NCBI GenBank assembly: GCA_947846985.1
Contig: CANTUZ010000025.1
Coordinates: 14,382,100-14,446,099, forward strand
Origin: Fratercula arctica
Lineage: Eukaryota; Chordata; Aves; Charadriiformes; Alcidae
Direction of reading: 5' to 3'
DNA: 64,000 nucleotides
Position 1 is the first letter of the stretch; the number at the start of each line of letters is the position of its first letter. A model generated the notes under the pieces. That model was not told the DNA's origin. It ran no database searches and saw nothing but the letters and a program-made list of their open reading frames with translations. Shown piece after piece: positions 1,644 to 53,881 of the stretch. The position numbers and the translations under genes were made by a program.

Positions 1644-2702
1644 ATGGTCTCCACTTGTTCTGTAGCCAAAGCCAAAAGGAATAAAGTGACCCAAACGGAC
1701 CTGATGGAGAGACATGCAGCTGTCCAGGTGACGGGCTGCATGGAATGTCTGTCACTCTGGCAGGAGAACAGCAAAGACAGTGCCTGTGTGCGCTGTGACC
1801 AGGTAAATGATCTGCTCAGCCTGGTGGCTGAGCTTAAGGAGGAAGTGGAAAGACTGAGGACTATTTGGGAGTGTGAAAGGGAGATTGATTGGTGGAGCCA
1901 CACCCTGCCATCTTTAGGGAAAAAGCAGTGGGCGGAGGCTCCATGAGAGGTAGAGGATCCCCTGTCCTCTTGTCACCAGACAGGAGGAGGGGAACTAGGA
2001 GAGGATATGGGGGAATGGAAGCAGGTACCTGCTTGGGGCAGCAGGAGAGTCCCCTCCGGACCTCCCATGCCTCCCCAGGTGCCTGTACAGAAGAGATATG
2101 GGTCTCTGGAGATAGATGATGAGGGAACTAAGGATGCTGATAAAGCCCCATCCAGGGAGTTGCCAAAGCCGCCAGCTCCAGGCATTAAGACTGCTTCTGT
2201 GAAGAGCAGGAGGTGGGCAATAGTCATAGGGGGTTCCATTCTGAGGGGAACCGAGGGTCCCATATGCAGGCCGGACCCTTCCCACAGGGAGGTCTGCTGT
2301 CTCCCTGGGGCCCGTGTTAAGGATATAGCCAGGAAACTTCCTGGCCTGATACGACCCTCAGATTATTACCCTCTTTTGATCTTACAGGCAGACAGTGATG
2401 AGCTGGAGAGTAGAAGTCTGAGGGCAATGAAGAAAGATTTCAGGGCCTTGGGACAGCTTGTCAAGGGTTCGGGAGCACAAATTGTGTTCTCCTCTGCCCT
2501 TCCAGTTTTGGGGACTGATGAATGGGTAAACAAGAAAGTCGGACAGATCAACACCTGGCTCAAAAACTGGTGCTACGAGCAGGGCTTTGGGTTCTATGAT
2601 CATAGTTTGATCCACAGGACACCGGGCCTGCTTGCTAGGAATGGGAAAACCCTATCCCAAAAGGGGGAAAAGGGTACTAGGCCAAGAGTTAGCAAGGCTC
2701 AT
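1644..2702 (+). pseudogene. CR1-B ORF1 (zinc-finger, coiled-coil and esterase-like protein)
   Basis: ORF1 of CR1 encodes an RNA-binding protein that acts with ORF2 in the retrotransposition particle. The start chosen is the ATG at 1644. Residues about 32-55 hold paired cysteines (CMEC and CVRC) of the N-terminal finger, followed by a leucine-rich coiled coil around residues 55-75. An in-frame TGA at 1944-1946 breaks the frame. From about 2209 comes an SGNH-hydrolase-like domain: block I reads VIGGSILRG, where the family usually has GDS or GNS around the serine, and the final block reads FYDHSLI with the Asp and His. The usual terminal TGA of ORF1 seen in CR1-D is GGA here (2703-2705), so the frame runs on into ORF2. 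Confidence 0.85.
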
Positions 2703-2723
2703 GGACAGGGCTTTAAACTAGAA

Positions 2724-3922
2724 ATGAAGGGGGAAGGGGATAAAACCAGGCCCACTAGTAATGAGCCTAGGGATAAAGGGCCAAGGATGGGGGTGAAATC
2801 GGTAGCCCAGCTCAAGTGCATCTACACGAATGCACGTAGCGTGGGCAACAAACAGGATGAGCTGGAAGCAGTTGTGCAGCAGGACAACTATGATGTAGTT
2901 GCCATCACGGAAACGTGGTGGGATGACTGTCATGACTGGAATGCTGTGATGAATGGCTATAAGCTCTTCAGAAGGGATAGGCAAGGAAGGAGAGGCGGGG
3001 GTGTGGCTCTGTACATTAGGGGATGTTTTGATTGTATAGAGCTAGATTCCAGGGATGATGAAGTCAAGTGTTTATGTGTAAGGATGAAGGGGAAGGCAAA
3101 TAAGGGAGATCTTGTGCTGGGAGTATGCTATAGACCACCCAACCAGGATGAGGAGACAGATGAAGTATTCTGTAAGCAGCTGGCTGAAGTCTCACAATCA
3201 CCAGCCCTTGTTCTGGTTGGGGACTTCAACCTGCCAGGTATCCGCTGGAAATATAACACAGCAGAGAGCAGGCAGGCTAGGAGGTTCCTCGAGTGCATGG
3301 AAGATAACTTCCTGACACAACTGGTAGGTGAGCCTACCGGGGAGGTGCCTTGCTAGACCTACTGTTCACAAACAGAGAAGGACTAGTGGGAGATGTGGTG
3401 GTTGGAGGCTGTCTTGGGTTTAGTGATCATGAAATGGTCAAGTTTTCAATTTGTAGTGATGTAAGGAGGGGGGTTAGCAAAACCTCCACCTTGGACTTCC
3501 GGAGGGCGGACTTTGGCTTGTTCAGAACACGGGTTGAGAGAGTCCCTTGGGAGAGAGTCCTGAAGGGCAAAGGGGTCCAGGAAGGCTGGATGCTCTTCAA
3601 GAAGGAAATCTTAAAGGCCCAGGAGCAGGCTGTCCCCAAGTGTCACAAGTTTAAAGGGCAGGGAAAATGGCCAGCCTGGATGAATAAGGAACTTCTGATG
3701 GGACTTGGGAATAAAAGGAGGGTTTACCACCTTTGGAAGAAGGGACAGGCAACTCAGGAGGAGTACAGAGATCTCACTAGGTTATACAGAGAGAAAATTA
3801 GGAAGGCAAAAGCCCAGCTGGAGCTCAACTTGGCCACTAACATTAAGGACAGCAAAAAAAGTTCTTATAAATACATCAACAAAAAGAGAGTCAGGGAGAA
3901 TCTCCATCCCTTACTGGGTGCA
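2724..3922 (+). pseudogene. CR1-B ORF2, endonuclease half
   Basis: This is the apurinic/apyrimidinic-type endonuclease that nicks target DNA for target-primed reverse transcription. Visible motifs in order are TNARSVGNK, AITETWWDD, GGGVALYIRG, VCYRPPNQ, GDFNLPGI and SDHEMV, which include the metal-binding and catalytic positions of the family. The likely ORF2 start is the ATG at 2724. A one-base deletion near 3337-3345 shifts the frame, after which the linker region (PAWMNKELL, ELNLATNIKD) continues up to the provirus insertion. The same frame as ORF1 is used upstream. Confidence 0.88.
3917..3922 (+). repeat. Target-site duplication GGTGCA, left copy
   Basis: The six bases GGTGCA just left of the LTR at 3923 are repeated at 10770-10775 just right of the other LTR. 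A 6-bp duplication is usual for alpha/beta-retrovirus-like (class II) integrases. CR1-B reads continuously across the site when the provirus and one copy are removed. Confidence 0.95.
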
Positions 3923-4275
3923 TGCGACGAGCGAGGGAAGACAAGCAGCCGACTCAATGTGAGTGATAAAGCAAGCTTCAGTTTATTGCCCGAATACGCT
4001 TCATTATATAGCTACTGGTTACATCATCGCTTGAATATTGGCTAATTATAAAAGTCATCTGCTCACTGCGATTGGCTCTCTGTCAACACGACAGGGTTCA
4101 GCCTTAGTTCCCTATTCTTATCAGCTCCTTATTCTTGCTTCTGCATTCTCATGGCTTGTTTACTTAGTACTTTCCCATTGCCGAGCTGTAACTTTCCACT
4201 TGCTTCTACGCTATTCTCATCTCACATAACTCCTCTATTGTCCCATGACCTTGCTCCTCAAGCCATTCTGCAACA
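3923..4275 (-). mobile_element. 3' LTR of the mosaic provirus
   Basis: The 353-bp LTR reads TGTTGCAGAATGG to GACGAGCGTCGCA-type ends on the minus strand (TG...CA). A TATATAA box lies at 4004-4010 and an AATAAA polyadenylation signal at 3982-3987, both on the minus strand, giving a normal U3-R-U5 order. No difference from the 5' LTR was seen. Confidence 0.95.
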
Positions 4276-4302
4276 ATTCCCCCTTTTTTTTTTTTTTTTT
4301 TT
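4276..4302 (-). promoter_or_regulatory. Polypurine tract next to the 3' LTR
   Basis: On the minus strand a run of A followed by GGGGGAAT lies directly before the LTR TGT. This is the plus-strand primer site of reverse transcription and fixes the provirus orientation. Confidence 0.9.
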
Positions 4303-4707
4303 TTTTAAACACTCCAGGCTTGGTTTATTACTTTTAACATAGCTCTCTTAACACAAGAAAGAACTACACATAAGCACAAACTTATGATTACAAGAATTAT
4401 TATAATATGCAAGCCTTCAACAAGCAATTCTAATACTTCCAAACAAGCTAGTTAGCCACTCATCAAAAAACCCATGAGTTTGCTGAATTTTGTTTGTATG
4501 TTCTTTTAACCACTGCAACTGTTTGTGAATTGATTCACTGTGATCGGACAAATTCATACAACACATACCCTCAAAATCTTCGCAACCATGTCCTTGAGCT
4601 AATAACAAAAAGTCAATTGCTGCTCTATTTTGCAAAATCGCATGGCGCAGGCTATTCTGGTCTTCTAACAAACTTTCAATTATTTCTGTGGTGACATTGG
4701 CTATCAT
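4303..4707 (-). pseudogene. Env transmembrane subunit remnant, second copy (segment D)
   Basis: The fragment starts in the heptad region of the TM subunit and contains the immunosuppressive-type block [13 protein letters not shown] followed by a CX6CC motif (C-EDFEGM-CC), which in alpha- and gamma-type envelopes links SU and TM covalently. After a frameshift near 4425 the membrane anchor can be read in another frame, ending just before the polypurine tract. The surface subunit, cleavage site and fusion peptide are missing, so it cannot make an envelope. Its 5' edge at 4707 joins directly to a partial LTR of another element. Confidence 0.85.
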
Positions 4708-5015
4708 TACATTTATAGTATTATGCTATCTGTTCACGCGCTCTAACACCTACTGATTGGCTGCATGCTATTTTCACGAGCTGTCCATGCGCAGGCAGCA
4801 TCCTGCTGATAGGTTGAGGGTCGATTGCCACGCGCTTCTCAGTGTCTTTTAACTGATCGTCTCTGACTGTTCACACAGAGCAGCAGCTTTGCTTTTCACA
4901 TTCCTTTCCTTGCTGATATCTCCTGGCACTTGCTTCTCAAGGCGCCTCTCACGGGTACAGCTTTGTCTCATCAAGGCCAAACAGATTCCCTACGCTGCTC
5001 TCTATCATCTCCACA
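4708..5015 (-). mobile_element. Partial LTR (U3 and start of R) inside the mosaic provirus
   Basis: On the minus strand the sequence after GGGGGAAT at 5016 begins TGTGGAGATG, parallel to the PPT-LTR junction at 4276/4275, but the following 300 bases differ from the outer LTR. It ends a few bases after a TATA-like ACTATAAATG near 4720, then runs directly into Env TM. This looks like the 3' end of the RNA of a related retroelement. Confidence 0.7.
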
Positions 5016-5029
5016 ATTCCCCCTTTTTT
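5016..5029 (-). promoter_or_regulatory. Internal polypurine tract
   Basis: Minus-strand AAAAAAGGGGGAAT directly before TGTGG. It is nearly the same as the polypurine tract at 4276 and supports the reading of 4708-5015 as LTR. Confidence 0.75.
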
Positions 5030-5054
5030 ATTTTTTATGCAACAAAAAGCTTGA

Positions 5055-5835
5055 TTAATCATTTTTTGCACTATTTTCTGTAAGCAGCCTAAAATACAGC
5101 GCATGACAAGCATTGGATGACAAAGATGACATGTTTAGAAAATTTAAAACATAAGTTGCTTTATACAATTGCTCTTGAGGTGTCATACCGACGGGATTTC
5201 CCCTGTTTCGTTTATCAAGCATGGTTTTTAAGGTATGATGAATACGTTTCGCAATTGCTTGCCCAGTTGGGGAATGAGGAATACCGGTGACATGTTTGAT
5301 ACCCCATGTCTGTAGAGAGGCCTGTATTTTAGCGGACACATAAGCTGGTCTGTTATCAGTTTTTACAGTTTTCGGTACTCCCATGACTGCAAGGCATTGC
5401 AACTAATGTCGAATAACATCACGAGCCTTTTCTCCTATATGAGCACTAGCTACAACAAGGTGAGAAAACAAATCAACTGAAACATGTACATAGCGCAAAC
5501 GTCCAAATTCCATAATGTGCATAACATCAGATTGCCAAAGTTCATCAGGTGTAAGCCCTCGCAGGGTAATCCCCACAAATGATGGCAGAGGAGCCAGCTG
5601 CTGACAGCGCAAACGACCCTGTGAAATCAATCATGCTAACATTTCAATCATCATAGTTACTGTTTTTTGAAAAGTTATGTGGCAAAAATACTCACTCTAA
5701 TGCAGTCAGGCTCTTTGCGAGTGCATCATCCCACTGTCCTATCAGGGTGTAAGGTTGAAATTTTTGATGTATCATAAACAAATCTGCAATGTGCTGTAAT
5801 GCTTTCTGAGCTGTTGGGGTTAATGAACGTGGAAC
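5055..5835 (-). pseudogene. Class II pol remnant: RT connection-like piece and integrase (segment C)
   Basis: From 5835 downward a short stretch resembles the RT connection region (it contains the block IGQWDDALAKSL near 5735-5700). It is followed, after stops, by integrase without a complete zinc-binding domain. Core motifs visible are LWQSDVMHI with the first Asp and KTDNRPAYVS with the second. The residue 36 positions after the second Asp, where the catalytic Glu belongs, is Lys (QAIAKRIHHTLK), so the D,D(35)E triad is broken. A TAG near 5403 splits the core. Its 3' end runs to the internal polypurine tract without any env. Confidence 0.82.
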
Positions 5836-6242
5836 CTACCAGGGAGGGGGGGTGGGCAGACACAGCACTGCAGGGCATCCCCTGTATCTTCAAAGTGCGC
5901 TCATGTCTATCCCCCTCTCTCTGACCCGAGACAGCCCCCTTATATCCTGCCCCGGACTGAGTGGAAAAGTACAGGCTAGGGTCGCTGCATGCGTGGCCAG
6001 CACATGCAGCGAGCCTCACCAGACTCATGATCCAGCTTTGCTAACTGCGGATGTCTGATACCTGACTCCCTTGTACTCCCTCCTTGTTATCTTCTTCTTT
6101 GAAAGTTAGGTTCTCATGGATACACATATAGTTTTTCAGCAACAGTACTGAGTCCCTTTTTCCCAACATGCATACTGGGTTTGGTTCAACTAGTAATTCT
6201 CCGTCGTGTCTCACTCGAACCATCCTCTATTATCCCTTACAC
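5836..6242 (-). mobile_element. Partial LTR of a second class II family
   Basis: Read on the minus strand it begins TGTAAGGGATAATAGAGG and includes the TATA box in GATATAAGGGGGCTG near 5935-5947. The same family is present as a solo LTR at 50245-50842. The match stops about 100 bases after the TATA box, before the polyadenylation signal, and the sequence switches to pol of another element near 5836-5850. Confidence 0.8.
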
Positions 6243-6249
6243 ATGCCAC

Positions 6250-6813
6250 CCTGTGGCCCATAGTTGGGACACAACAGTATTCTATAACTCGTACAAAGGT
6301 ATGATGCAAAGCAACATCTGCAACTGATCGTATAATGCTTATTAAACATAGCAAATAGCATACTAAACATAACAGACAGATTCCTTCCACACAGGCAATG
6401 AGTATAATTTCCTTCAACCAACCCCACCCCCAAGTCCATCCAGCAAAGAGATTTCACACAGTGGTCTCCACAAGTTGCTGGCTCGGTCGGTGCAGTTCTT
6501 GCAACTGGGCATGGATGGATTTGGAGTGGTCACTTAGATTCATACAACACAGTCCTTTAAAATCTTGACAACTGTGTACGTGAGCTAAAAGCAAAAAATC
6601 AATAGCAGCTCTGTTTTGCAGCATTGCATGTTGAATACTATCTACATCTAGCAATAACTCAGAAACAGCTGTACTAGTAGCATTACTAAATTTATCCCTG
6701 GCAGCGAGAGAGTCCTTGTTATCAAGAATCCTTGGCATCGAAAGAGTCCTTGTTAGCAAGAGCGCATGCGGACTCCCTGTTCTTGCTGGTACTGGGCTTT
6801 GATCTTCTTCCAC
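6250..6813 (-). pseudogene. Env transmembrane subunit remnant, first copy (segment B)
   Basis: The frame 6813-6454 contains the block [13 protein letters not shown] and a CX6CC motif (C-QDFKGL-CC), as in the other TM copy, but the two differ in many residues and so come from different elements. After a frameshift the membrane anchor follows at about 6400-6320 (a long Ile/Leu/Cys-rich stretch). The surface subunit is absent. It ends just before the partial LTR that begins at 6242, so segment B keeps the natural env-to-LTR order of its source. Confidence 0.83.
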
Positions 6814-7799
6814 AACAGGCCAAGATTCTCAGGCAGCTAGATAAGGTGTCCCTGAGTCCATTACAGACTTATGTCATCTAAGTGTTTTTCTTGCAAGCAT
6901 CTGAGACTGAATAACAATTAGTGTGATAGATGTGTTTTCCAGCACCCAGGTGCGAGTCCCTTGAGCATATTTACAATCCTCCTTGCTGATCTTCCGTTGC
7001 TTTCCCATATTCCACCCCCCTGCTCAAGAGACTGCTTCTGCTGGTGTTCATTTAGTCTCACAGGGTATAACACAGAGTAACTTACAAAGGCGTGCAATAA
7101 CATATATACATATAGGAAAAAAAAGCCCAAAACATATCTCTATAGTACTGCTTGAATCAGGGGTCTTATTTCTCTTTTTCTGCTGCTGTCTTGTAGCATG
7201 TATGGCATACTTTTGTGCTAAGACGGCACATTTCCCTTCTAATTGTTCCCTTTTTCTTCTCTCATCACTTACAGCTGACATAAAAGTCTGCCTTGCAACA
7301 AGAGCTCACCCTTAAGTTTCTCATTTTCCTACAGAGCATCCTATAAATTTTAGCTTAACTCCTTTTCCCAATCAACCATGATCTTATAGGCAAACAACAA
7401 ACAACCAGCCATACACCCTGCATGGGTAAGCTGTTCCCGAGACTGTAAGCATGTCGGCTGGCAAAAACACCCCCAATATTTCAGGACTTCCATCGGTTCT
7501 ACAGCCCATCATGGTCTATCTACCTGGGGTGCACTCGCCTTACATCTAAACATTGTGTATATACAAACTTCTTCGCTTGACAGAGTGTCAGCCCTAGTCA
7601 CGTACGAGAACAGTACCACACCGGGCAGAACACCTGCTCAAGCAGAGTCACCAAACGACACTGCACACAGCAACAAACAAACAGTAGCACAGATGCTGAT
7701 CAGCAGATATAAATTGGCACCCACACACACTTACACAGCAGACATACAAAAACACCACTTCTATCTCAGGGAAATGGCTGGGGCTGGGGGGGGGGGGGT
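6814..7799 (-). other. Unresolved stretch inside the mosaic provirus
   Basis: No retroviral domain could be recognised here. There are only short frames, among them a basic, charged 77-residue frame at 7281-7048. A run of 13 G at about 7786-7798 marks the edge where integrase similarity ends. By position it would be expected to hold the end of integrase and the surface part of env. Confidence 0.6.
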
Positions 7800-8415
7800 G
7801 GCGGCTCTTTTCACTTGTATAAGCAGGTCTATTATCGGTCTTAATTTCTCGTGGTAGTCCCATGACTGCAAAGCAACTCGCAAGATGCCTAATTACATGT
7901 AAGGCCCTCTCGCCAGCCTGAGCTGTGGCCCAAAGAAAGCCACTATAAGTATCAATAGTAACATGTACATATTTCAGTCGTCCAAACTCGGGAACGTGTG
8001 TGACATCCATCTGCCAGAGCTCACAAGGACCCAATCCTCGCGGGTTAACGCCTAAACCGAGCCCAGGGCCGTGGTGACTACAGGTGGGACAAGCACGCAC
8101 GATTCCTCTGGCTTCATCCATAGTGACATTGAACTGTTGATGCAATCCCTTAGCGTTTTGATGGAACATGCCATGTGATTCCCTGGCTTTGATGAATTCA
8201 CTCAGGGGGGCTGCCACTGTCACCAGTCTGTCTGCTCGGGCGTTACCTTCTCCTAACCCTTGGTCCCACATGTGACTCCGAATGTGGATGACACAAAATG
8301 GAGCAGTACGTTGCTTAATCGCTGCCTGTAGCGCTCTCAGCAGCTCAAAGAGCCACCGATTAGACAGCTCTTTTATTCTTGCGTCCGCTCTGGCTCTGTC
8401 CTTCTCCCCTGACAT
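7800..8415 (-). pseudogene. Class II RNase H C-terminus and integrase (segment B)
   Basis: The open frame begins in the last part of RNase H (WLFELLRALQAAIKQ, then the GEGNARADRL block with the final Asp) and continues into integrase. The HHCC zinc-binding module is visible (H..H in GMFHQNAKGLHQQ, then CPTC), followed by the core with LWQMDVTHVPEFG carrying the first catalytic Asp and KTDNRPAYTS with the second. Similarity stops soon after, at a G run, so the catalytic Glu and C-terminal DNA-binding domain are lost. Upstream the sequence changes to gag at about 8420, which means that protease and nearly all of RT are deleted. Confidence 0.85.
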
Positions 8416-9066
8416 TCTGACAATACACTGCTATACCCTGATTCTGGCTGCGCACACATAAGCGGTTGAAAAGGAAGAACAAACGCGATACCTGGCGCAA
8501 ATGGAGGAGGCTTAATAATGGAGGAACGCGATAACGACTTTCGTCTCTGTTGCTGTAAAATCTCCTCCGCAGTTGTAGCAGAGGCAGCCATAGCTTTAAT
8601 CAGGGTTAAAGGTGGACATAAATCAGGTTCAGTCTCTGGATTTATTAGGCCAGGATCAAAGGGATCTTCTGGCTCTTTGCCTCCTGAATTCTGTTTTTGG
8701 TAATGTTTTTCAGAATTGGGAATTTGAGCATATTTAGGCTAAGGGTCTGCCACTGGGGGTGTCATTTCAAAAGACTGAGGTTCCTTTGGGGGAGCTTGTG
8801 GTGCCCCTCCAGCAACCCCTTGCAGGGCTCTGGCAAGGACAAGTGCAGCGTCTCCCGCATTTGCAATTCCTCCCCCACTTTTAGCCACTGAGCCAAATCG
8901 TAGGACCACCCTTCAGGGAACCATAAGCAATAATCACGTATCCATACAAGCAAAAAATTTCTGAGTCAAATACTCATCCGCATCCTATGAACCCATCTCT
9001 GCTTCTTCTAGCATAGTACAAATCCATCTCCTCACTTTCTATTCTTTAACACTATCTCCCTTTTCT
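8416..9066 (-). pseudogene. Second gag fragment (matrix and proline-rich region, segment B)
   Basis: On the minus strand this reads as a betaretrovirus-like matrix piece with the block YCLWFPEGWSYDLAQWLK near 8945-8880, broken by stops and frameshifts. In another frame a proline-rich region follows with the block INPETEPDLCPPLTLI and PPPFAPGIAFVLPF. It lies downstream of another, complete-looking gag start (10107), so the provirus carries two overlapping gag regions from different sources. Confidence 0.7.
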
Positions 9067-9077
9067 GATACATTACA

Positions 9078-10107
9078 CTATTGCGTATCCCCAGACTCGT
9101 CCGCTGCTGTTTCAGACGGATCACCCGTTCCCGGACTCCCACACACCCTCTCCTCAACCGCCTGCAAACCCTCCTTGATAACCTCATGAGCCTTTTTATA
9201 AGCAGCCCGTATCGTGCCCGCTTTCAAACCCTTATCAAGTCTCTGCATTTCCGCGAGCAATTGCTGCATAGTGTTCTGTTGTTCGCGGAGAGCGTCACGG
9301 AGCTCCGCAGTATCTTTAGGTGGATAGATGGTTTTCGGACGAATGTCCTCGGAGGATGATGATGTTTCCATAGGCTGAGGAGAGTCGGGGGGAACCTGCA
9401 TGGATGACTCCGGTAGACCAGAGTACGGTGGAGCGGTCAGTTGCAGAGGCGAAAATGTCCATTCGTCAGACGCCCCCCAGAACTCCTTTTCTGACTGCTT
9501 TATTACAGGAAATGCATTGGAGGATGAACTGTTTCCCTCTTCCCCAGCTGCATCTAACACCCTCTGGGCTGTGGCGGCAATAACAGCTGATCCATGCATG
9601 CCTGCAATCAGTCCCTTCACCTGTCAATAAGTGCCTGCCAGGTTCCAGGCTTCCTTATTCTCTGACTGCACTGCTTCCCACATTTCCACTCCAATTCGAG
9701 TCCATGTTGAAAGGTCAAAAAACTGAGTCGGATCTCTGAGCAATCCTTATTGTCGGCATCAAGATAATAGTTCCAGTAAAGCACTCTCACTAAGGTTTTC
9801 CCTGGCACTTTTGCCAGCTGCAGCAAACTTTGTACCGCTGCCTTTTCGCCTTATACTTTTTCATACAGTTAATAACGTCTCGTCAAGATTTCATCAACTT
9901 TTTTGTAGTTTTATCGTCATCTATAACTTTATCCCATAAGCAATCTCCAAACGTTCGCCACTCTTCTACTTCAAACATATCGTCTGGGTCCTTAAAGTAT
10001 CCAGGAGCTTTGCCTAATGCAATTAACCCGGCCAGATCTTTTATAGGGCCTACTCCCCGCTTTTCTAAAAAGCATTGTAAAAATTGTAAAGCTACCTCTC
10101 TATCCAT
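9078..10107 (-). pseudogene. Gag 5' part of the mosaic provirus (segment A)
   Basis: The likely gag start is the ATG at 10107-10105, following the leader and primer site. The first 74 residues form a helical, matrix-like domain containing the block ALQFLQCFLEKRG. A TGA stop ends it at 9883. Two more frames follow, 9826-9617 and 9620-9078. The latter is 180 residues, with an acidic and proline-rich part (PPDSPQPMETSSSSED) and a coiled coil (AELRDALREQQNTMQQLL). No capsid major homology region or zinc knuckle is seen. Gag normally packages RNA and builds the particle; this one cannot as it stands. Confidence 0.75.
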
Positions 10108-10130
10108 TTGCGACGCATCGTCTTCCTCTT

Positions 10131-10203
10131 TATGATCCCTTGATTACTTATGATCCCTTGATTACTTGTGATCCCTTGATTACTTACGATCCCTTGATTA
10201 CTC
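10131..10203. repeat. 18-bp tandem repeat, four copies, in the gag leader
   Basis: The unit is close to GATCCCTTGATTACTTAT and is repeated four times with one or two changes per copy. On the provirus strand it lies between the primer binding site and the gag start, where packaging signals are often found. It contains stops in the gag frame and so is non-coding. Confidence 0.9.
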
Positions 10204-10396
10204 TGCAGCCTTTTTTTTTTTTTTTCTTTTCCGTTTAGGTAGCTTTCCTCAGACGGCGATCCTCCTCTTAATTATCCGAAGATCAGGTACGGACAGACAT
10301 ATCATGTGCCAGCCATATCATGTACTGTCTTTTACCCCCTGGTCGCTGCTACCAGTGCTTTTCCAAGCTCGCTGTCCGGTGGGAACAAGGCTGGGG

Positions 10397-10414
10397 GTCC
10401 CTCTTCGGGCGCCA
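10397..10414 (-). promoter_or_regulatory. Primer binding site, tRNA-Lys3-like
   Basis: Minus-strand TGGCGCCCGAAGAGGGAC lies two bases from the LTR. It differs at one base (G for C) from the usual tRNA-Lys3 site. It primes minus-strand DNA synthesis and shows that the 5' end of the provirus is on the right. Confidence 0.88.
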
Positions 10415-10416
10415 CT

Positions 10417-10769
10417 TGCGACGAGCGAGGGAAGACAAGCAGCCGACTCAATGTGAGTGATAAAGCAAGCTTCAGTTTATTGCCCGAATACGCTTCATTA
10501 TATAGCTACTGGTTACATCATCGCTTGAATATTGGCTAATTATAAAAGTCATCTGCTCACTGCGATTGGCTCTCTGTCAACACGACAGGGTTCAGCCTTA
10601 GTTCCCTATTCTTATCAGCTCCTTATTCTTGCTTCTGCATTCTCATGGCTTGTTTACTTAGTACTTTCCCATTGCCGAGCTGTAACTTTCCACTTGCTTC
10701 TACGCTATTCTCATCTCACATAACTCCTCTATTGTCCCATGACCTTGCTCCTCAAGCCATTCTGCAACA
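10417..10769 (-). mobile_element. 5' LTR of the mosaic provirus
   Basis: 353 bp, with no difference from the 3' LTR at 3923-4275 by eye. The minus-strand TATATAA box is at 10498-10504 and the AATAAA signal at 10476-10481. LTRs are identical at integration, so this identity indicates a recent event. Confidence 0.95.
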
Positions 10770-10775
10770 GGTGCA
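10770..10775 (+). repeat. Target-site duplication GGTGCA, right copy
   Basis: Matches 3917-3922 exactly. Confidence 0.95.
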
Positions 10776-12429
10776 GGGGGGGGAAGTTGCAACCAAGGAT
10801 GAGGAGAAGGCTGAGATACTTAATGCCTTCTTTGCCTCCGTCTTCAATAGTCAGACCAGCTATCCCCAGGGTGTTCAGCCTCCTGAGCTGGAAGATAAGG
10901 ATGGAGAGCAGAACAACCCACCCATAATCCAGGAGGAAGTAGTCAATGATCTGCTTCTGCACCTAGATGCACATAAGTCTATGGGGCCGGATGGGATTCA
11001 CCCAAGAGTCCTCAGGGAGCTGGCGGGAGAGCTCACCAAGCCTCTCTCCATCATTTATCAACAATCCTGGTCAACAGGGGAGGTACCAGATGACTGGAGG
11101 GTGGCTAATGTGACGCCCATCTACAAGAAGGGTCGGAAGGAGGATCCGGGGAACTACAGGCCTGTCAGCCTGACCTTGATACTAGGAAAGATCATGGAGA
11201 GGATCATCTTGAGTGAGCTCTCACGGCAAGTGCAGGGCAGCCAAGGGATCAGGGCCAGCCAGCATGGGTTTAGGAAAGGGAGGTCCTGCTTAACCAACCT
11301 GATCTCCTTCTATGACCATGTGACCCACATTCTGGACACGGGGAAGACTGTGAACATTGTCCATCTGGACTTTGGTAAGGCCTTTGACACCGTCCCCCAC
11401 AGCATTCTCCTGGAGAAGCTGGCCAATCATGGCATAGACAAGTGTACTCTTTGCTGGGTTAAAAACTGGCTGGATGGCTGTGCCCAGGGAGTTGTGATTA
11501 ATGGGGTGAAATCCTCTTGGCAGCCGGTCACCAGTGGTGTCCCTCAGGGCTCAGTTTTGGGGCCAGTTTTGTTTAATATCTTTATCAATGATCTGGATGA
11601 GGGGATTGAGTGCACCCTCAGTAAGTTTGCAGACGACACCAAACTAGGTGGGAGTGTTGGTCTGCTTGAGGGTAGGAAGGCTCTACAGAGGGTCCTGGAC
11701 AGGCTGGATCGATGGGCCAAGGCCAATTGTATGAGGTTCACCAAGGCCAAGTGCCGGGTCCTGCATTTCGGCGACAACAACCCCAAGCAACACTACAGGC
11801 TTGGGGAAGAGTGGCTAGAAAGCTGCCCAGCAGAAAAGGACCTGGGGGTGCTGGTGGACAGCCAGCTTAACATGAGCCAGCAGTGTGCCCAGGTGGCCAA
11901 GAAGGCCAACAGCATTCTGGCTTGTATCAGGAATAGCGTGGCCAGCAGGAGTAGGGAAGTGATCGTGCCTCTGTACTCGGCACTGGTGAGGCCTCACCTC
12001 GAGTACTGTGTTCAGTTCTGGGCCCCGCTGTACAAGAGGGACATTGAAGTGCTGGAGTGTGTCCAGAGGAGAGCTACCAAGCTGGTGAGGGGTCTGGAGA
12101 CCAAGCCATATGAGGAGAGGCTGAGGGAACTGGGCATGTTTAGTCTGGAGAAGAGGAGGCTGAGGGGAGACCTCATTGCCCTCTACAACTCCCTGAAAGG
12201 AGGTTGTGGAGAGGTGGGTGTTGGCCTCTTCTCCCAGGTGAATAATGAGAGGACCAGAGGAAATGGTCTGAAGTTGCAGCAGGGGAGGTTTAGATTAGAT
12301 ATTAGGAAGAATGACTTTACTGAAAGAGTGGTCAGGCACTGGAAGAGCCTGCCCAGGGAGGTGGTTGAGTCACCATCCCTAGAGGTATTTAAGAAACATG
12401 TAGATTTGGCACTTCAGGGCATGCTCTAG
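10776..12429 (+). pseudogene. CR1-B ORF2, reverse transcriptase half
   Basis: The frame is open without stops from the provirus junction to the TAG at 12427-12429. The RT blocks appear in order: [52 protein letters not shown] with the first catalytic Asp, [14 protein letters not shown] and [10 protein letters not shown] with the catalytic pair. The C-terminal region includes [10 protein letters not shown]. The protein would copy CR1 RNA at the nicked target. The RT half itself is well preserved, but the element is split by the provirus and its 5' half has a stop and a frameshift, so the element as a whole is inactive. Confidence 0.93.
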
Positions 12430-15879: not shown

Positions 15880-16225
15880 TGTCCTGGTTCCGGCAGGGAC
15901 AGGGTTAAGTATTCCATGCCATGTGAGCCACGCCCACCCTGAGATTAAAAGGAGGGAGGGGGGGAGCAGTCGGGTTCGGAGCGGGCTGGCGCGTCCCGGG
16001 GCCGGACCGGCGGGGAGCGGCGGGGAGCGGCAGTTCCGTAATCGCGTTTGTATATTTCTCTGTCGGTGTTATTGTTGTTGTTTTCTTGTTCCTTTTGCTG
16101 TTCTGTTAAACTGCCTTTGTCTCAACCCAAGAGTTTTGCCTTTTTCTTTTGATCCTTCCCGTACCGGGAAGCGCTGAGCGAGCGACACGTGGTTCTTTGT
16201 TGCCATCTGAGGCCAAACCACGACA
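15880..16225 (+). mobile_element. P1 5' LTR (346 bp)
   Basis: Begins TGTCCTGGTTCC and ends ACCACGACA. A possible TATA variant ATTAAAAGG lies about 65 bases from the start. The middle is GC-rich with two copies of GGGAGCGGCG. No AATAAA is present; how it polyadenylates is not clear. Confidence 0.95.
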
Positions 16226-16233
16226 GTCCTTTT

Positions 16234-16251
16234 TGGTGCCCAACGTGGGGC
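16234..16251 (+). promoter_or_regulatory. P1 primer binding site, tRNA-Lys1,2 type
   Basis: TGGTGCCCAACGTGGGGC, eight bases after the LTR. It has one C-to-T change from the site seen in P4. Confidence 0.9.
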
Positions 16252-16329
16252 CCGAAGGGTTGAGACAACAACAGAATCCAACTAGAGCTTGAAAAAATGA
16301 ATTTGTTAGGTAAATAGTCGCTGGTCACT

Positions 16330-18383
16330 ATGTTGCTTAGTTTGTTCTCATGGCTGTGTTATGTAAATTCCTATGTGTTTTATGCACTCCCTGTGATGAT
16401 ATTTGTTACTTCTGGGAGGGGGATGAGGATTATCATTTTACTGTCCTGTGCAATATCGGCTTATGATATGATAACATCACTTGTTAGATGGTTATTTTGG
16501 GGTGTTTATGTGGTATTGCTGTCCTGTCCGTACACTGGGCACCACCTCTCAGAATTCATTAATAATTACACCCAGTCTATGGGGGAAACAGGGGGAGACA
16601 CTTTCCCCAGCTCTTTTGCCTCCCTTTTCACCTTTGAGTCAGGTATGACAGCTTTTGGGAATTTTGAATATCCTTGGGATGCTCAAACCAGCATGTTCCT
16701 AGTGTTATGTTTGCTGAATGTGTTCCAGGTCTCGTTTAGGGTTAAACAACTCTTTAAGACTACCACCCAGAGATCTGCTCCAAGGCTGGACAGTCAGGGG
16801 TGGCATGGCATGTGGGAGAACATGGGCAGGTACTTAGAGAACTTCTCACCTCCAATGGTCTGGGACTTCACCCCTGAACAATTACAGGACCCTGATAGAA
16901 TAGTAGAATATCTGAAGGGAAAATGCTGTGGCTGTTCTAGAGAGGCACAACTCACCGCACTGTGCTGGGCCCTGGCTAGTGTCTACCAGGCACTGCTCAG
17001 TGCTATGCAGCACCCTCAGAAGAAAGAGACAGAGACCAGACCAGCAGGCGCTGCAGCCCCTGCGGCAGGTGCTGCGGCCCCTGCGGCCCCTGTGGCACAT
17101 GCTGCTGCGATGGGCACTGCAGCTACCGCGACCCCTGCGATGGGCACTGCAGCTACCGGGACCCCTGCGACGGGCACTGCGGCTACCGCAACCCCTGCGA
17201 CGGGCACTGCGGCTACCGCAACCCCTGCGACAGACACTGCAGCTACTCCAGCCCCGGTGACAGCCACTGCTGCTGAACGAGGGAACCAACCCGTGCCAGT
17301 ATCCGTTGCCCCCATACAAAAGAAGAAGTACACAAAGAAATCGGTTCGCATAGTAAGAGACGACGATGAACCAGGGCCATCACAAGGACAGGAGGAAGAG
17401 GCAGAACCAGAGATAATTACCCGATCCCTATCCCTGAGTGAGCTGCGGGATATGCGAAAAGATTTTAGCCGACTTTCAGGTGAGCACATTGTCACCTGGC
17501 TGCTTCGGTGTTGGGATAACGGGGCCAGTAGCCTGGAATTAGAGGGTAGGGAAGCCAGGCAGTTGGGATCCCTGTCTAGGGAAGGTGGCATTGACAAGGC
17601 AATTGGAAAGAAGACCCAAGCCCTCAGCCTCTGGAAACGACTCCTGTCAGGCCTGAGGGAGAGGTACCCCTTCAGTGAAGATGTTGTATGTCACCCAAGC
17701 AAATGGACCACCATGGAAAGAGGTATTCAGTACCTGAGAGAATTAGCCATTCGGGAGATGATTTATTATGACTTGGACAACACAGACTTGCCCACGGACC
17801 CTGATGAGGTGCAATGCACAAGGCCCATGTGGCGGAATTTGTACGGAGTGCACCATCGTCATATGCCAACTCACTGGCAGTAATGGAATGGAAAGGGGAA
17901 GAAGGACCAACGGTGGATGAGGTGGCTAGCTGGCTCCGGCGATATGAAGAAAGCCTCTCTTCCCCCCTTGTCTCAGCTGTGGAGAAACTGTCCCGGAAGG
18001 TCCAGCAACTTGAAGAGAATATGTCCTACTCCCCACCTATACGGGCCAGCATCTCAGCTATTAGGAGCAGGCATTTCCCCACTCAAGAGAGAGAGTACAG
18101 AGGGTACACACCACGAGGCACCCTCTGGTTCTACCTGCGTGACCATGGAGAGGACATGAGGAAGTGGGATGGACAACCTACTTGGATCCTGCGGACACGG
18201 GTACAGGAGTTGCAAGGAAGGACAACCACAAAAGGAGATCCCTCCAGGAAAAGTGCCGCCCCAGTTTCCAGTGGGCAGTTCCCCAGAGAGAGCAGAAGGC
18301 CTGATCTTGCTTCTGATCCTCTTGAAGGAACCTCCAAGTCATTTCTGCAAGAAGTGAGTACCGGATACCATGACCAGTATTAG
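16330..18383 (+). pseudogene. gag: P1 gag, membrane-anchored N-terminus, one frameshift
   Basis: Gag would build the particle. The start is the first ATG after the leader. Residues 1-70 contain three hydrophobic segments in close succession (around 4-27, 33-50 and 52-68) and a fourth lies around 122-138, so the N-terminal domain looks like a multi-pass membrane protein where other retroviruses have a myristoylated matrix. A helical region follows, then five 10-residue Ala/Thr repeats, then a basic patch (KKKYTKKS). The capsid-like part after that contains WLLRCWDNGASSLELEG, similar to ERV-L gag. There is no CCHC zinc knuckle. A one-base deletion near 17837 shifts the frame (17814-18383 continues it). 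Correcting for the shift the length is 684 residues, exactly 50 fewer than P4, which has five more repeats. Confidence 0.85.
17107..17256 (+). repeat. Coding 30-bp tandem repeat in P1 gag, 5 units
   Basis: Five in-frame units encoding variants of ATGTAATATP. The last unit reads ATDTAATPAP. Unit number differs between proviruses (1 in P3, 10 in P4). Confidence 0.95.
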
Positions 18384-18440
18384 AGGGACCCTGCCTCCAG
18401 CCAGGTGGAAGAAAGGGACAACCGGGTTTATTGGACAGTG
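18381..18440 (+). promoter_or_regulatory. P1 gag-pol junction with in-frame UAG
   Basis: The gag stop is TAG and the following codons stay open in the same frame into pol, so pol is most likely made by stop-codon readthrough as in gammaretroviruses. In P4 and P2 the downstream bases can form a CCTCC/GGAGG stem about ten bases after the TAG; in P1 a G-to-A change weakens it. Confidence 0.7.
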
Positions 18441-21400
18441 TGGATTCGATGGCCTGGCACATCAGACCCACAGGAGTATAAGGCTCTAGTGGACACAGGA
18501 GCACAGTGTACTCTGATACCATCAAGCTATAGAGGGGCAGAACCCATTTGTATTTCTGGGGTCACAGGGGGATCCCAAGAGTTGACTGTACTGGAGGCTG
18601 AAGTGAGCCTAACTGGGAATGAGTGGCAAAAGCATCCCATTGTGACTGGCCCAGATGCTCCATGCATCCTTGGTATAGATTACCTCAGGAGAGGGTATTT
18701 TAAGAACCCAAAGGGGTATCGGTGGGCCTTTGGCATAGCTGCCTTGGAGGCGGAGGAAGTTAAACAGTTGTCCACCTTGCCTGGTCTCTCGGAGGACTCT
18801 TCTGTTGTGGGGTTGTTGAGGGTCGAAGAACAGCAGGTGCCGATTGCTACCACAACGGTGCATCGGCGGCAATATCGCACTAACCGAGACTCTCTGATTC
18901 CCATCCATAAGCTGATTCGTGAACTAGAGGTTCAAGGAGTGATCGGCAAGACTCGCTCGCCTTTTAACAGTCCTATACGGCCGGTGCGAAAATCCAATGG
19001 AGAGTGGAGGCTAACTGTAGACTATCGTGGCCTGAATGGAGTCACACCATCGCTGAGCGCTGCTGTGCCGGACATGCTAGAACTCCAGTATGAACTGGAG
19101 TCCAAGGCAGCCAAGTGGTATGCCACGACTGATATAGCGAATGTATTTTTCTCAATCCCTTTGGCAGCAGAGTGCAGGCCACAGTTTGCTTTCACCTGGA
19201 GGGGCATCCAGTACACCTGGAATCGACTGCCCCAGGGGTGGAAACACAGCCCCACCATTTGCCATGGACTGATCCAGACTGCACTGGAACAGGGTGAAGC
19301 TCCAGAACATCTGCAGTACATTGATGACATCATCGTATGGGGAAACACAGCAGAAGAAGTTTTTGAGAAAGGGAGTAAAATAGTCCGAATCCTTCTGAAA
19401 GCTGGTTTTGCCATAAAACGAAGTAAGGTCAAGGGACCTGCACAGGAGATCCAGTTCTTAGGAATAAAATGGCAAGATGGACGCCGCCAAATCCCAATGG
19501 ATGTGATCAACAAAATAGCAGCTATGTCTCCACCAACTAGCAAAAAGGAAACACAAGCTTTCTTAGGCATTGTGGGTTTTTGGAGGATGCATATCCCAGA
19601 TTACAGTCTGATTGTAAGCCCTCTGTATCAAGTAACCCGGAAGAAGAACGACTTTAAATGGAGTCCTGAGCAACGACAAGCTTTTGAACAAATCAAACAG
19701 GAAATAGTCCATGCAGTGGCCCTGGGGCCAGTCCGGGCAGGACAAGATGTGAAAAATGTGCTCTACACCGCAGCCGGGGAGAATGGCCCTACCTGGAGCC
19801 TCTGGCAGAAGGCACCAGGGGAGGCCCGAGGTCGACCCCTAGGGTTTTGGAGTCGGGGATACAGAGGATCCGAAGCGCGCTACACTCCAACAGAAAAGGA
19901 GATATTGGCAGCATATGAAGGGGTTCGAGCTGCTTCGGAGGTGGTTGGTACAGAAGCGCAGCTCCTCTTAGCACCTCGACTGCCGGTGCTGGGTTGGATG
20001 TTCAAAGAAAGGGTCCCCACCACACATCATGCAACTGATGCTACATGGAGTAAGTGGATTGCACTGATCACACAGCGAACTCGAATGGGAAACCCCAGTC
20101 GCCCAGGAATTCTGGAAGTGATCATGGACTGGCCAGAAGGCAAGGGTTTTGGAATGTCACCAGAGGAGGAGGTGACGCGTGCGGAAGAGGCCCCACCATA
20201 TAATAAATTGCCAGAAAATGAGAAGCAATATGCCCTGTTCACTGATGGGTCCTGCCGGATTGTGGGAAAGCATCGCAAGTGGAAGGCTGCTGTGTGGAGT
20301 CCTACACGACAAGTTGCAGAAGCCAGTGAAGGACAAGGTGAATCGAGCCAGTTTGCAGAGGTGAAAGCCATTCAGCTGGCTTTGGACATCGCCGAGCGAG
20401 AAAGATGGCCAGTACTTTCTCTCTACACTGACTCATGGATGGTGGCAAATGCTCTGTGGGGGTGGTTACAGCAGTGGAAGCAGGGCAACTGGCAGCGCAG
20501 AGGCAAACCCATCTGGGCTGCTGAACTATGGCAAGATATTGCTGCCCGCATAGAGAATCTGGTTGTGAAAGTACGCCACGTAGATGCCCACGTACCGAAG
20601 AATCGGGCCACGGAGGAACATCAGAACAACCAGCAGGTGGATCGGGCTGCCAGGATTGAAGTGGCTCAAGTGGATCTGGATTGGCAACATAAGGGTGAAC
20701 TATTCATAGCTCGGTGGGCCCATGACACCTCAGGCCACCAAGGAAGAGATGCGACATATAGATGGGCTCGTGACCGAGGGGTGGACTTGACCATGGACAC
20801 TATTGCACAGGTCATCCATGAATGTGAGACATGCGCTGCAATCAAGGAAGCCAAGCGTTTGAAGCCTCTTTCGTATGGAGGACGATGGTTGAAATATAAA
20901 TATGGGGAGGCCTGGCAGATTGATTATATCACACTGCCACGAACCCGTCAAGGCAAGCGCTATGTGCTCACAATGGTGGAAGCAACCACTGGATGGCTGG
21001 AAACATACCCTGTGCCCCATGCCACTGCCCGGAATACTATCCTGGGCCTTGAAAAGCAAGTCCTGTGGCGACATGGTACCCCAGAAAGAATTGAGTCGGC
21101 TCATTTCCGAAACAGCCTCATAGACACCTGGGCCAAAGAGCATGGTATTGAGTGGGTGTATCACATCCCCTATCACGCACCAGCCTCTGGGAAGATAGAA
21201 CGGTACAATGGACTGTTAAAAACTACACTGAGAGCAATGGGTGGTGGGACCTTAAAACATTGGGATGCACATTTAGCAAAGGCTACCTGGCTAGTTAATA
21301 CCAGGGGATCTACCAATCGGGCTGGCCCTGCCCAGTCAAAACTTCCACGTACTGTAGAAGGGGATAAGGTCCCCATAGTGCACATGAAGAATATGTTGGG

Positions 21401-21560
21401 GAAGACAGTCTGGGTTAGTCCTGCCTCAGGCAAAGGCAAACCCATCCGTGGGATTGCTTTTGCCCAAGGACCTGGGTGCACTTGGTGGGTAATGCGGCAG
21501 GATGGGGAAGTCCGATGTGTACCTCATGGGGACTTGATTTTGGGGGAGAATAGCCAATGA
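18384..21560 (+). pseudogene. pol: P1 pol: full-length frame, integrase active-site deletion
   Basis: The frame runs without stops from just after the gag TAG; a GTG at 18405 is the first start-like codon, but readthrough is more likely than initiation. Domains in order, numbering from 18405: aspartic protease with VDTGAQ at residue 29-34, RT with the catalytic Asp in TTDIANVFF near 243 and YIDD at 305-308, RNase H with FTDGS near 614, the integrase HHCC module, and the integrase core with QIDYI (Asp 840). A 9-bp in-frame deletion at about 21099 removes the Asp-Asn-Gly of the second catalytic block, leaving Ala at 899. The protein would be full length but the integrase should be inactive. Confidence 0.9.
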
Positions 21561-21843
21561 ATCAAATCGTGTGCGACACTGTCACTGTATGTCCTCGTTA
21601 CTATAATTGCTATTGGCTGTACTGCAGTAAGACTCACCCAAATTAAGGACAGATGGACTTTGATGAAGAATTGAGTAAAGCACAGTGGTGATGGGATCAG
21701 AGCTGACGCCCAGCAACTTCCTCAAGATCTGCATCTTTGGCCCATGGACTGTGTGCATGAGCTACGCCGGGTACACCAGTCACATGTTCCGAAAACTGTA
21801 AGATCTGGGCGTGGCAAAATGGTATGGAATAAGGGGTGGATAA
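21561..21843 (+). other. P1 region between pol and the 3' LTR
   Basis: After the pol TGA, 37 more codons are open in the pol frame (21561-21671) and include a hydrophobic run (LSLYVLVTIIAIGCTAV) followed by a basic tail, much like a membrane anchor. A separate 36-codon frame from ATG 21691 to TAA 21801 is open here but shifted in P4. No env protein is recognisable. A purine-rich tract (GGAATAAGGGGTGGATAA) at 21826-21843 precedes the LTR. Confidence 0.7.
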
Positions 21844-22179
21844 TGTCCTGGTTCCGGCAGGGACAGGGTTAAGTATTCCATGCCATGTGAGCCACGCCCA
21901 CCCTGAGATTAAAAGGAGGGAGGGGGCGAGCAGTCGGGTTCGGAGCGGGCTGGCGTGTCCCGGGTCCGGACCGGCGGGGAGCGGCGGTTCCGTAATCTCG
22001 TTTGTATATTTCTCTGTCCGTGTTATTGTTGTTGTTTTCTTGTTCCCTTTGCTGTTCTGTTAAACTGCCTTTGTCTCAACCCAAGAGTTTTGCCTTTTTC
22101 TTTTGATCCTTCCCGTACTGGGAAGTGCTGAGCGAGCGACACGTGGTTCTTTGTTGCCATCTGAGGCCAAACCACGACA
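21844..22179 (+). mobile_element. P1 3' LTR (336 bp)
   Basis: Same family as the 5' LTR but has one, not two, copies of the GGGAGCGGCG unit, making it 10 bp shorter. Confidence 0.95.
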
Positions 22180-29263: not shown

Positions 29264-29335
29264 CAAACAATCATAGGGTTGGAAGGGACCTCTGGAGATC
29301 ATCTAGTCCAACCCCCCTGCCAGAGCAGGGTCATC

Positions 29336-45830: not shown

Positions 45831-46176
45831 TGTCCTGGTTCCAGCGGGGACAGGGTTAAGTATTCCATGCCATGTGAGCCATGCCCACCCTGAGATTAAG
45901 AGGGGGGAGGGGGCAGGAAGTCGCGTCTGGGAGCGGGCTGGGGCGTCCTGGGTCCGGTTGGTGAGCGGCGGGGAGCGGCGGTTCCGTAATCATGTTTGTA
46001 TATTCCTCTCTCCGTGTTATTGTTGCTGTTTTTTTCTTGTTCCCTCTGCTGTTCTGTTAAACTGCCTTTGTCTCAACCCAAGAGTTTTGCCTTTTTCTTC
46101 TGATTCTTCCCATATTGGGAAGACACGAGCGAGTGGCATGTGGTTCTTTGTTGCTGTCTGAGGCCAAACCATGACA
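45831..46176 (+). mobile_element. P3 5' LTR (346 bp)
   Basis: TGTCCTGGTTCCAGCGG to CCATGACA; a slightly different subtype, with GGTTGGTGAGCGGCGG where P1 and P4 have GGACCGGCGG. Confidence 0.95.
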
Positions 46177-46184
46177 GTCCGTTT

Positions 46185-46202
46185 TGACGCCCAACGTGGG
46201 GC
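46185..46202 (+). promoter_or_regulatory. P3 primer binding site
   Basis: TGACGCCCAACGTGGGGC, one G-to-A change from the tRNA-Lys1,2 site. Confidence 0.88.
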
Positions 46203-46298
46203 TCGAAGGGTTGAGATAATGACAGAATCCAATTAGAGCTTGAAAAAACAAATTTGTTGTATGCGTTTATTTTATTAGGTAAATAGTCGCTGGTCACC

Positions 46299-49506: not shown

Positions 49507-49630
49507 AACTCACCAGACACTTTGGAAGGATGGCCCATAAACTCAGGGCATTATATCTTCATGAATATTTATGTGCATATATATATATATATGACAGAGG
49601 AAAGTGGTGGCAATTCCTTGGAACCTGTAA
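49507..49630 (+). other. Unrelated filler replacing integrase in P3
   Basis: About 124 bases with a short (AT)n at 49577-49592. No match to P1 or P4 was found by eye. It may come from the 3' region of another retroelement or be host DNA. Confidence 0.65.
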
Positions 49631-49673
49631 GATCTGGGCATGGCAAAAATGGTATGGAATAAGGGGTGGATAA

Positions 49674-50019
49674 TGTCCTGGTTCCAGCGGGGACAGGGTT
49701 AAGTATTCCATGCCATGTGAGCCACGCCCACCCTGAGATTAAAAGGAGGGAGGGGGCAGGCAGTCGCTGCTTGGAGCGGGCTGGGGCATCCCGGGTCTGG
49801 TTGGTGAGCGGCGGGGAGCGGCGGTTCCGTAATCGTGTTTGTATATTCCTCTCTCCGTGTTATTGTTGCTGTTTTTTTCTTGTTCCCTCTGCTGTTCTGT
49901 TAAACTGCCTTTGTCTCAACCCAAGATGTTTGCCTTTTTCTTTTGATTCGTCCCGTATTGGGAAGTCCCGAGCGAGTGGCATGTGGTTCTTTGTTGCCGT
50001 CTGAGGCCAAACCACGACA
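49674..50019 (+). mobile_element. P3 3' LTR (346 bp)
   Basis: Same subtype as its 5' LTR and equal in length, with several substitutions between them. Confidence 0.95.
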
Positions 50020-50244
50020 GAGATGTAATCAGAAAAGGTTGAAAAATAAGTATATGTCAATTTTTGAGGGGATAAAAAATCTCATCAGAAGGAGGTGGCA
50101 AATTATAAGTAACTTGACAAAAGAGAGTTAAAAATAGAAACTGAGGGTTTAATTAGAACTACACAGGAACAGGTGATTCACATGAGATATTTTGAATGTC
50201 AGATAGACAGTACATCCAAGATGTAGAATTTGTGCCCAGAGCTG

Positions 50245-53431: not shown

Positions 53432-53436
53432 CTTAC
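53432..53436 (+). repeat. Target-site duplication CTTAC of P4, left copy
   Basis: CTTAC before the LTR and again at 59892-59896. Confidence 0.95.
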
Positions 53437-53782: not shown

Positions 53783-53790
53783 GTCCTTTT

Positions 53791-53808
53791 TGGCGCCCAA
53801 CGTGGGGC
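53791..53808 (+). promoter_or_regulatory. P4 primer binding site, tRNA-Lys1,2
   Basis: TGGCGCCCAACGTGGGGC, eight bases after the LTR; perfect to the usual Lys1,2 site. Confidence 0.93.
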
Positions 53809-53881
53809 TCGAAGGGTTGAGACAACGACAGAATCTAACTAGAGCTTGAAAAAACGAATTTGTTAATAGTCACCAGTCACT

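Follow-up and report, generated by a model that had tools for sequence, protein, structure and literature searches.

A recent provirus of Fratercula arctica is very probably a young copy of a non-autonomous mosaic retrovirus family, built stepwise and mobilised in trans

The window analysed here is the whole stretch of 64,000 nucleotides of Fratercula arctica DNA (NCBI GenBank assembly GCA_947846985.1, contig CANTUZ010000025.1, hereafter C25, positions 14,382,100 to 14,446,099 of the forward strand), and it carries on its minus strand, at 3923 to 10769, an endogenous retrovirus (ERV) that is intact at its ends and scrambled inside. An initial annotation had judged the two outer long terminal repeats (LTRs) identical by eye, and base-by-base alignment agrees, giving 0/353 differences between two copies of 353 bp, with the identity ending exactly at both borders. 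The perfect 6-bp target duplication, GGTGCA on both flanks, is likewise as described, and together these features mark the insertion as recent. At a bird substitution rate of about 2e-9 per site and year, the lack of LTR differences allows an insertion age of up to roughly 2 million years. The provirus adjoins an open reading frame (ORF, 10546-12429) that resembles a long interspersed nuclear element (LINE), which we take to be of the CR1 type, and that has a reverse transcriptase (RT) domain (RVT_1, 7.2e-36).

The interior (Table 1) is a patchwork of pieces related to several ERV families of the same genome, which we call F0 to F4. A Pfam domain scan covered 9 + 8 pieces of the element, two of them in common. 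None of these pieces yielded a protease or RT domain, in keeping with the earlier statement that protease and most of RT are missing, and both integrase pieces are truncated. The initial annotation had also listed two gag regions, two integrase pieces, two pieces of the env transmembrane (TM) part and two extra partial LTRs. The last three pairs are all present, and gag is indeed multiple, though in three pieces and not two: an F0-type start, an F4-type ORF and a piece resembling Gag_p10 (8965-8762, E 1.1e-5). The first integrase piece, which has an RNase H end (8430-7806), gave rve at 2.9e-16 and Integrase_Zn at 1.9e-14, with RNase_H at E 0.078, below its cut-off; the second (5630-5055) lies in two frames, with rve matches of 1.7e-6 and 1e-6, both below the curated cut-off. 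The stretch ahead of the second piece is presumably an RT connection, judging from its motifs, and Pfam gave no family for it. The TM1 match is weak (6723-6454, E 0.015), and TM2 matches TLV_coat (4.4e-6) and an ASLV fusion TM (E 1.1e-27). The mutual similarity of the outer LTR (LTR0) and the inner LTR1 and LTR2 pieces is not clearly above that of shuffled sequences (scores 36, 37 and 27 vs shuffle maxima of 36, 39 and 39). No protein homologue of the gag frame 9078-9623 was found at E <= 0.001 among 262 candidates, and the frame is explained by its F4 match; a search of viral contigs with the 27-base LTR start gave no match.

Table 1 Features of the provirus, in positions of the window
Feature	Position	Strand	Remark
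Target duplication GGTGCA, copy 1	3917..3922	.	
3' LTR (LTR0)	3923..4275	-	same as 5' LTR
Polypurine tract (A-run, GGGGG, AAT) beside 3' LTR	4276..4300	-	F0 homology reaches 4292
TM2 block: most of env TM piece (ORF 4725-4417) and 3' untranslated stretch	4301..4703	-	
LTR2 piece: U3 to just past TATA box (end at about 4703)	4703..5016	-	own polypurine tract at about 5017-5035
F4 block	4703..7800	-	one contiguous 3.1-kb match to L056, 93.7%
Second pol piece: stretch read as RT connection, and integrase fragment	5055..5835	-	F3-type match 5606-5114, 92.9%
LTR1 piece: U3 and part of R, from 653-bp LTR family	5855..6243	-	contiguous with preceding env end
TM1: env TM end and tail, broken by TGA	6244..6723	-	TGA common to 13/13 reads of other copies
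F1 (LTR1 family) stretch, upstream of env	6703..7772	-	85-89%
Integrase piece of F0-type pol	7806..8208	-	97.8% over 403 nt; mosaic breaks here, F0 integrase goes on
RNase H end (weak match) and short patch	8209..8496	-	8463-8387 matches F4 at 89.6%
F3-type gag piece, Gag_p10-like	8497..8954	-	L047 92-98%, L048 89-92%
F4 gag block, including open frame 9623-9078	8955..9847	-	92.6% to F4
F0 leader and gag start (ATG 10107)	9840..10416	-	leader 90-95%, gag start 92-94% to four F0 loci
F0-type gag start	10107-9884	-	MA by position only
Primer binding site	10397..10414	-	one mismatch in the window; canonical in 12/13 reads of other copies
5' LTR (LTR0)	10417..10769	-	TATA box and AATAAA visible in sequence
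Target duplication GGTGCA, copy 2	10770..10775	.	

The same patchwork recurs across the genome, and we refer to its copies as family M. The search covered 1,214,569,813 bases on 28 contigs, among which C25 measures 28.4 Mb. For each probe the best 40 candidates were scored, the window's own sequence included, and the counts are therefore lower bounds; alignments below 90%, 85% or 60% of a piece, depending on the analysis, and table rows shorter than 80 or 90 bases were left out before counting. The best 40 of 261 candidates for the LTR matched at 97-100%, the window's own two included. A search for other copies with the same internal junctions had been suggested as a check, and the joints recurred in all 40 scored matches of each of two breakpoint-spanning probes: gag to integrase (best 40 of 330 candidates, 98-100%, from query base 1-3 to 1311-1321 of 1321) and TM1-LTR1-pol (best 40 of 781, 97-100%, whole probe length). 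The TM2 probe (4310-4725) likewise gave 40/40 at 98-100% among the best of 267 candidates. Eleven of these 40 TM2 matches had no partner in the other lists and were read upstream as possible helpers; all 11 have LTR2 and the pol piece, which in L029 is interrupted by an LTR.

Eleven collinear copies with paired LTRs ending in TG...CA were read at different sites (the window, L009-L013, L014/15, L020, L021, L023 and L024), with the duplications GGTGCA, GTCTTT, CCCTCC, CTTGGC, CTACTG, GGTACC, TCTTCC, TGGGGA, GGGGAA, CAGGAG and CCCCAT/CCCCGT; the duplication is perfect in ten, and L024 keeps 5 of 6 bases. LTR pairs differ at 0, 3, 5, 3, 3, 4 and 6 of 353 positions, and in the copies with 346-347-bp LTRs at about 1, 3, 0 and 2, as read from identity percentages, so that equal LTRs are not unique to the window (L023 has them too). 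This second LTR subtype, of 346 bp and 97% identical to the window LTR, frames the same mosaic in L020, L021, L023 and L024 on contigs C11, C14, C15 and C25, and seven LTR matches of the subtype have one identical score. Stretch 5137-5287 is missing from L009, L011 and L023, and L022 is partial. L016 and L017 (C25:1803300-1817100) form a tandem array of M units with a common LTR, which seems to extend past the fetched stretch, and L008 and L015 (C25, near 6.28 and 6.30 Mb), about 14 kb apart, have an identical 20-base flank beside an M LTR, indicating local duplication. We dropped the 403 matches of a 28-base pattern as a count of M copies, because the pattern is also present in both F4 LTRs.

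That the scrambled interior is older than the insertion follows from the joints and lesions that the window has in common with these other copies. Our counts are of reads, not copies: L016 was counted twice, for its two units, and L014, L015 and L017 are pieces of longer loci. There were 13 reads for most features, 12 for some 3' features and 10 for the polypurine tract. All 13 reads have the TM1 stop, and all have the TM1-LTR1 joint, which shows one-base variants in 4; the start of LTR2 with its polypurine tract is present in 12/12 reads, as is the LTR2-TM2 region, with small variants; the primer binding site, which we take to be of the Lys type, is kept in 13/13, and the polypurine tract beside the 3' LTR in all 10 reads that aligned. 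The run of C at the integrase joint differs in length among copies. Since the same joints are found in copies at separate insertion sites, the patchwork was inherited by copying and was not made when the window provirus inserted. Identical LTRs and a broken interior are compatible for the same reason, because the LTRs are equalised in every round and the interior is inherited.

Three alternatives bear on this point. The initial annotation had held that the mosaic arose before or during reverse transcription from co-packaged RNAs and was integrated in trans. The character of the event stands, as the mosaic does look like the result of retroviral recombination, but that recombination did not take place in this provirus's own reverse transcription, with the main joints present in all 12-13 alignable reads of other copies. 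A mosaic formed in that single event and integrated once would account for identical LTRs, a perfect duplication and a multi-source interior; as the same joints recur in the other copies that were examined, which lie on several contigs beside other flanks, we regard it as extremely improbable. Equally improbable is the ordinary decay of one old provirus followed by gene conversion that equalised its LTRs: such conversion is known, yet the damage is common to copies at other sites, and the LTR pairs of ten other copies are also nearly equal. An assembly artefact, with near-identical repeats collapsed or mis-joined, is also very unlikely. The work is based on the assembled sequence, and the window by itself would leave room for an assembly error, but copies on C11, C14, C15 and C25, each set in its own flanks and duplication, show the same order of pieces, as does C27 in part.

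The blocks of M have not diverged evenly. The mean pairwise difference among copies is 2.25% in leader-gag, 1.74% in gag-integrase, 3.07% in the middle and 1.27% at the TM2 end, and TM2 with the 3' untranslated region, the leader and gag-integrase have fewer segregating sites than the middle has in its untranslated or LTR stretches (Fisher p 0.00018, 0.0003 and 4e-5). Exchange of blocks at different times would be expected to produce such unevenness, and so would constraint on the blocks with fewer segregating sites. Purifying selection on TM2 (9 nonsynonymous vs 10 synonymous changes, p 0.017 in one of seven tests) was too weak a signal to claim.

Relatives of the donors survive in the same genome. 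F0 has its ends in common with M. One F0 provirus (L045, L051) spans about C25:13864552-13871558 and has two LTRs that are 97.6% alike, the duplication TCAGGT, a 581-amino-acid gag frame (Gag_p24 5.7e-31, CCHC), a frame with dUTPase (4.2e-20) and the start of protease, and an integrase that includes its C-terminal domain and runs on past the point where the mosaic breaks off at 7806. Its primer binding site, presumably also of the Lys type, has one difference, and no frame of at least 120 amino acids was found between integrase and 3' LTR. In all four loci of the F0 protease group (283-amino-acid frame), LTR, leader and gag start match M at 87-95%. F0 can thus be read as a coding family of this genome that has the cis-acting ends of M. 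Eight protease loci (C1, C2, C12, C14, C27 and C25), six of them with a 276-amino-acid frame, score equally at 82.3 bits, a hint of an ERV family that is very young; for one of the eight, L044, the 4.1 kb lying upstream gave no DNA match to M.

The inside of M is best matched by F4, whose locus L056 holds a provirus of 5.2 kb; its LTRs measure about 402-404 bp and are 98.0% alike, its duplication is CTACAT, and its primer binding site is one that we take to be of the Trp type. L056 covers 7800-4703 in one piece of 3127 aligned columns and 9847-8955 over another 909. It is itself a defective mosaic with an LTR other than LTR0, and its own C-rich stretch accounts for the C-rich spacer at the integrase joint. 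F4 is likely a multi-copy family, given that a pattern found in both its LTRs forms 11 same-strand pairs 4.8-5.2 kb apart among 100 listed of 403 places, of which L056 was read. Because F4 holds a complete LTR2 where M keeps U3 alone, derivation of M from an F4-like element is favoured over the reverse. F1 is represented by L036, with 653-bp LTRs and a 5-bp duplication, which matches M at 7772-6703 and 6593-5855 and runs unbroken from env into the LTR; a nested solo LTR was therefore rejected as the origin of the LTR1 piece. A further LTR of the LTR1 family, 87% identical to the inner piece, lies at 50243 to about 50846 of the window, and the best 40 of 499 genome candidates were scored. The gag-pro-pol family F2 (L040-L043 and L046) has the TM1-LTR1-pol piece in three loci (L040, L042 and L043), the last two extending into LTR2; gag was read in L041 and L046, and RT and integrase in L040. 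We rejected F2 as the direct donor of the 3' half of M, since F4 fits better, as a single piece that reaches 4703. Splice-like motifs had made 5835-5620 look like a captured host exon with a short intron, a reading that was dropped since the corresponding stretch of L040 is open and in frame with integrase. F3-type sequences match gag 8954-8497 at 89-98% (L047 and L048) and the second integrase piece at 92.9% (L052, fetched 1.6 kb beyond L047).

Taken together, the window provirus is, with high confidence, a young copy of a large non-autonomous ERV family, a patchwork built stepwise by template switching and mobilised in trans. Before the window insertion, RNAs from several ERV families would have been packaged together, and template switching between them would have built the patchwork, with small patches added from other gag and env sources. 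The last large step would have joined the F0 ends (LTR, Lys-type primer site, leader and gag start on one side, polypurine tract and LTR on the other) and the F0 integrase piece to the interior of an F4-like element. An M RNA would retain the LTR promoter, primer site, leader and polypurine tract, and every new copy would gain equal LTRs and its own 6-bp duplication and keep the old interior. Because no protease, RT or whole integrase was found in M, reverse transcription and integration must be supplied from elsewhere, as the initial annotation had supposed. Particles, RT and integrase may come from F0-type or other class II proviruses, the former being the simplest helpers because they have the ends of M. 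The common breakpoints, the separate insertion sites and the donor relatives in the same genome were observed directly; from them we infer the co-packaging, the template switching, the order of steps and the identity of the helper.

A second possible origin of the patchwork lies in DNA: ERVs may have nested and recombined in a crowded locus on a repeat-rich contig, and one transcript from outer LTR to outer LTR may have founded the family. True nesting does occur, since L014 holds at 2145-8414 a 6,270-bp ERV of another family (that of window 15880-22179) with the duplication GGTTC and LTRs 99.1% alike, and C25 is rich in LTR1 matches and in the F4 LTR pattern. However, no target duplications were found around the inner LTR pieces, each of which stops inside its LTR: LTR1 follows its own env end without interruption and breaks off within R, and LTR2 has kept the polypurine tract that belongs to it and ends after the TATA box. 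Retroviral gene order is also kept within each donor for most pieces. The several nested insertions with their own duplications that the initial annotation had named as evidence against its view are thus not what the locus holds, the inner LTRs being truncated and contiguous with donor sequence. Both are best read as 3' ends inherited from donor families, neither nested insertions nor products of the window event. Short shared stretches stand at the joints of M, and with the missing inner duplications and the internally ending LTRs they make template switching a better fit than nested insertion. An origin in DNA is accordingly unlikely, though it keeps a small share of the probability.

Several points weigh against the stepwise, trans-mobilised origin that we prefer. 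The short homologies at the joints fit template switching yet also allow joining at the DNA level, and mobilisation of M in trans is something that we read from sequence. The fetched F0 loci are relatives and not proven helpers, F0 and window LTRs being only 87-94% alike. F4 is known from one provirus read (L056), and no donor emerged for TM2 or for most of 8496-8209. Not all lesions are universal, since the stop in the second integrase piece occurs in only 10/13 reads and the gag stop at 8739-8741 in only 9/13.

We further speculate, at even odds, that a defective element changed its helper by swapping its ends, an F4-like interior with an LTR2-type promoter and a Trp-type primer site having acquired F0 ends to become M; the inner LTR remnants would then record earlier rounds of end swapping. 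If so, end capture would let retroviral parasites outlive their helper, and the donor families for testing this are still in one genome. In simulations, ERV lineages may come to an end once defective families overtake their helpers, according to passages of a bovine ERV study (PMC10924933), and helper switching by end exchange would be a way around that loss. More generally, M accounts for a provirus that is badly scrambled although its insertion is very young, and because donor relatives survive, the successive recombinations between ERV families living in one genome can be followed in it step by step.

The best-scored matches are concentrated on C25 (LTR 26/40, gag 33/40, TM1 35/40 and TM2 35/40, vs 0.93 expected), although such top scores are a non-random sample. 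C25 is probably the avian W chromosome, judging from its size, its repeat content and the integrase protein matches, of which the named ones among 120 listed of 265 are nearly all from birds, plus pangolin and turtle. The concentration of M would then fit the avian W as a refugium for ERVs, as it is described in passages of PMC8310711. Elsewhere in the window, 15880-22179, 45831-50020 and 53434-59891 are three LTR-flanked copies of another ERV family, with LTR pairs 94.8%, 94.2% and 96.6% alike, and two of them have pol frames of 1058 and 1061 amino acids with RT, RNase H and integrase. Positions 1-1050 and 29172-30221 are inverted copies, 99.1% identical, which overlap sequence with about 68% identity to the LINE-like ORF next to the provirus.

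With paired LTRs, target duplications, a primer site, a polypurine tract, no complete enzymes found and many insertion sites, M is a defective ERV family. The 6-bp duplication and the betaretroviral integrase, whose best PDB matches include 3jca and 7usf (both presumably MMTV), place it in class II (betaretrovirus-like), as does a dUTPase, which is present in the relative F0 and not in M. TM2 is ASLV-like all the same, although the primer site of M is not that of an alpharetrovirus: ALV-type elements use a Trp-type site, as F4 appears to do, and M presumably a Lys-type one. Mouse ETn, mobilised by MusD, resembles M in having ends in common with a coding family and a replaced coding region, but its interior is not known to string together gag, pol, env and LTR pieces from other ERVs. 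ART-CH and other non-autonomous chicken elements are, by description, short bird LTR elements without enzymes of their own, like M. No description of M was found in the titles, openings of abstracts and some passages of the literature searched.

Researchers have described, in passages of a study of human ERVs (PMC4724089), how Harlequin and other mosaic elements are said to have multiplied after recombination with the help of 'midwife' elements. Likened by description and not by sequence, M resembles them in having one mosaic plan at several loci with different flanks and in needing proteins from a fuller element. The same passages make the absence of a third, unrelated inner LTR a criterion for the potential to re-integrate, whereas M amplified with two such pieces. 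In cattle, the D-type elements of ERVK[2-1-LTR] measure about 6.8 kb and are mobilised together with C-type copies, according to passages of PMC10924933, and like M they are defective class II elements of similar size beside a coding relative; they are described there as lacking functional genes, and their mobilisation was measured, whereas M consists of pieces of at least four ERV families and is known from its sequence. Mosaic, helper-dependent ERVs are thus already known as a kind, and what sets M apart is its unusually clear pedigree.

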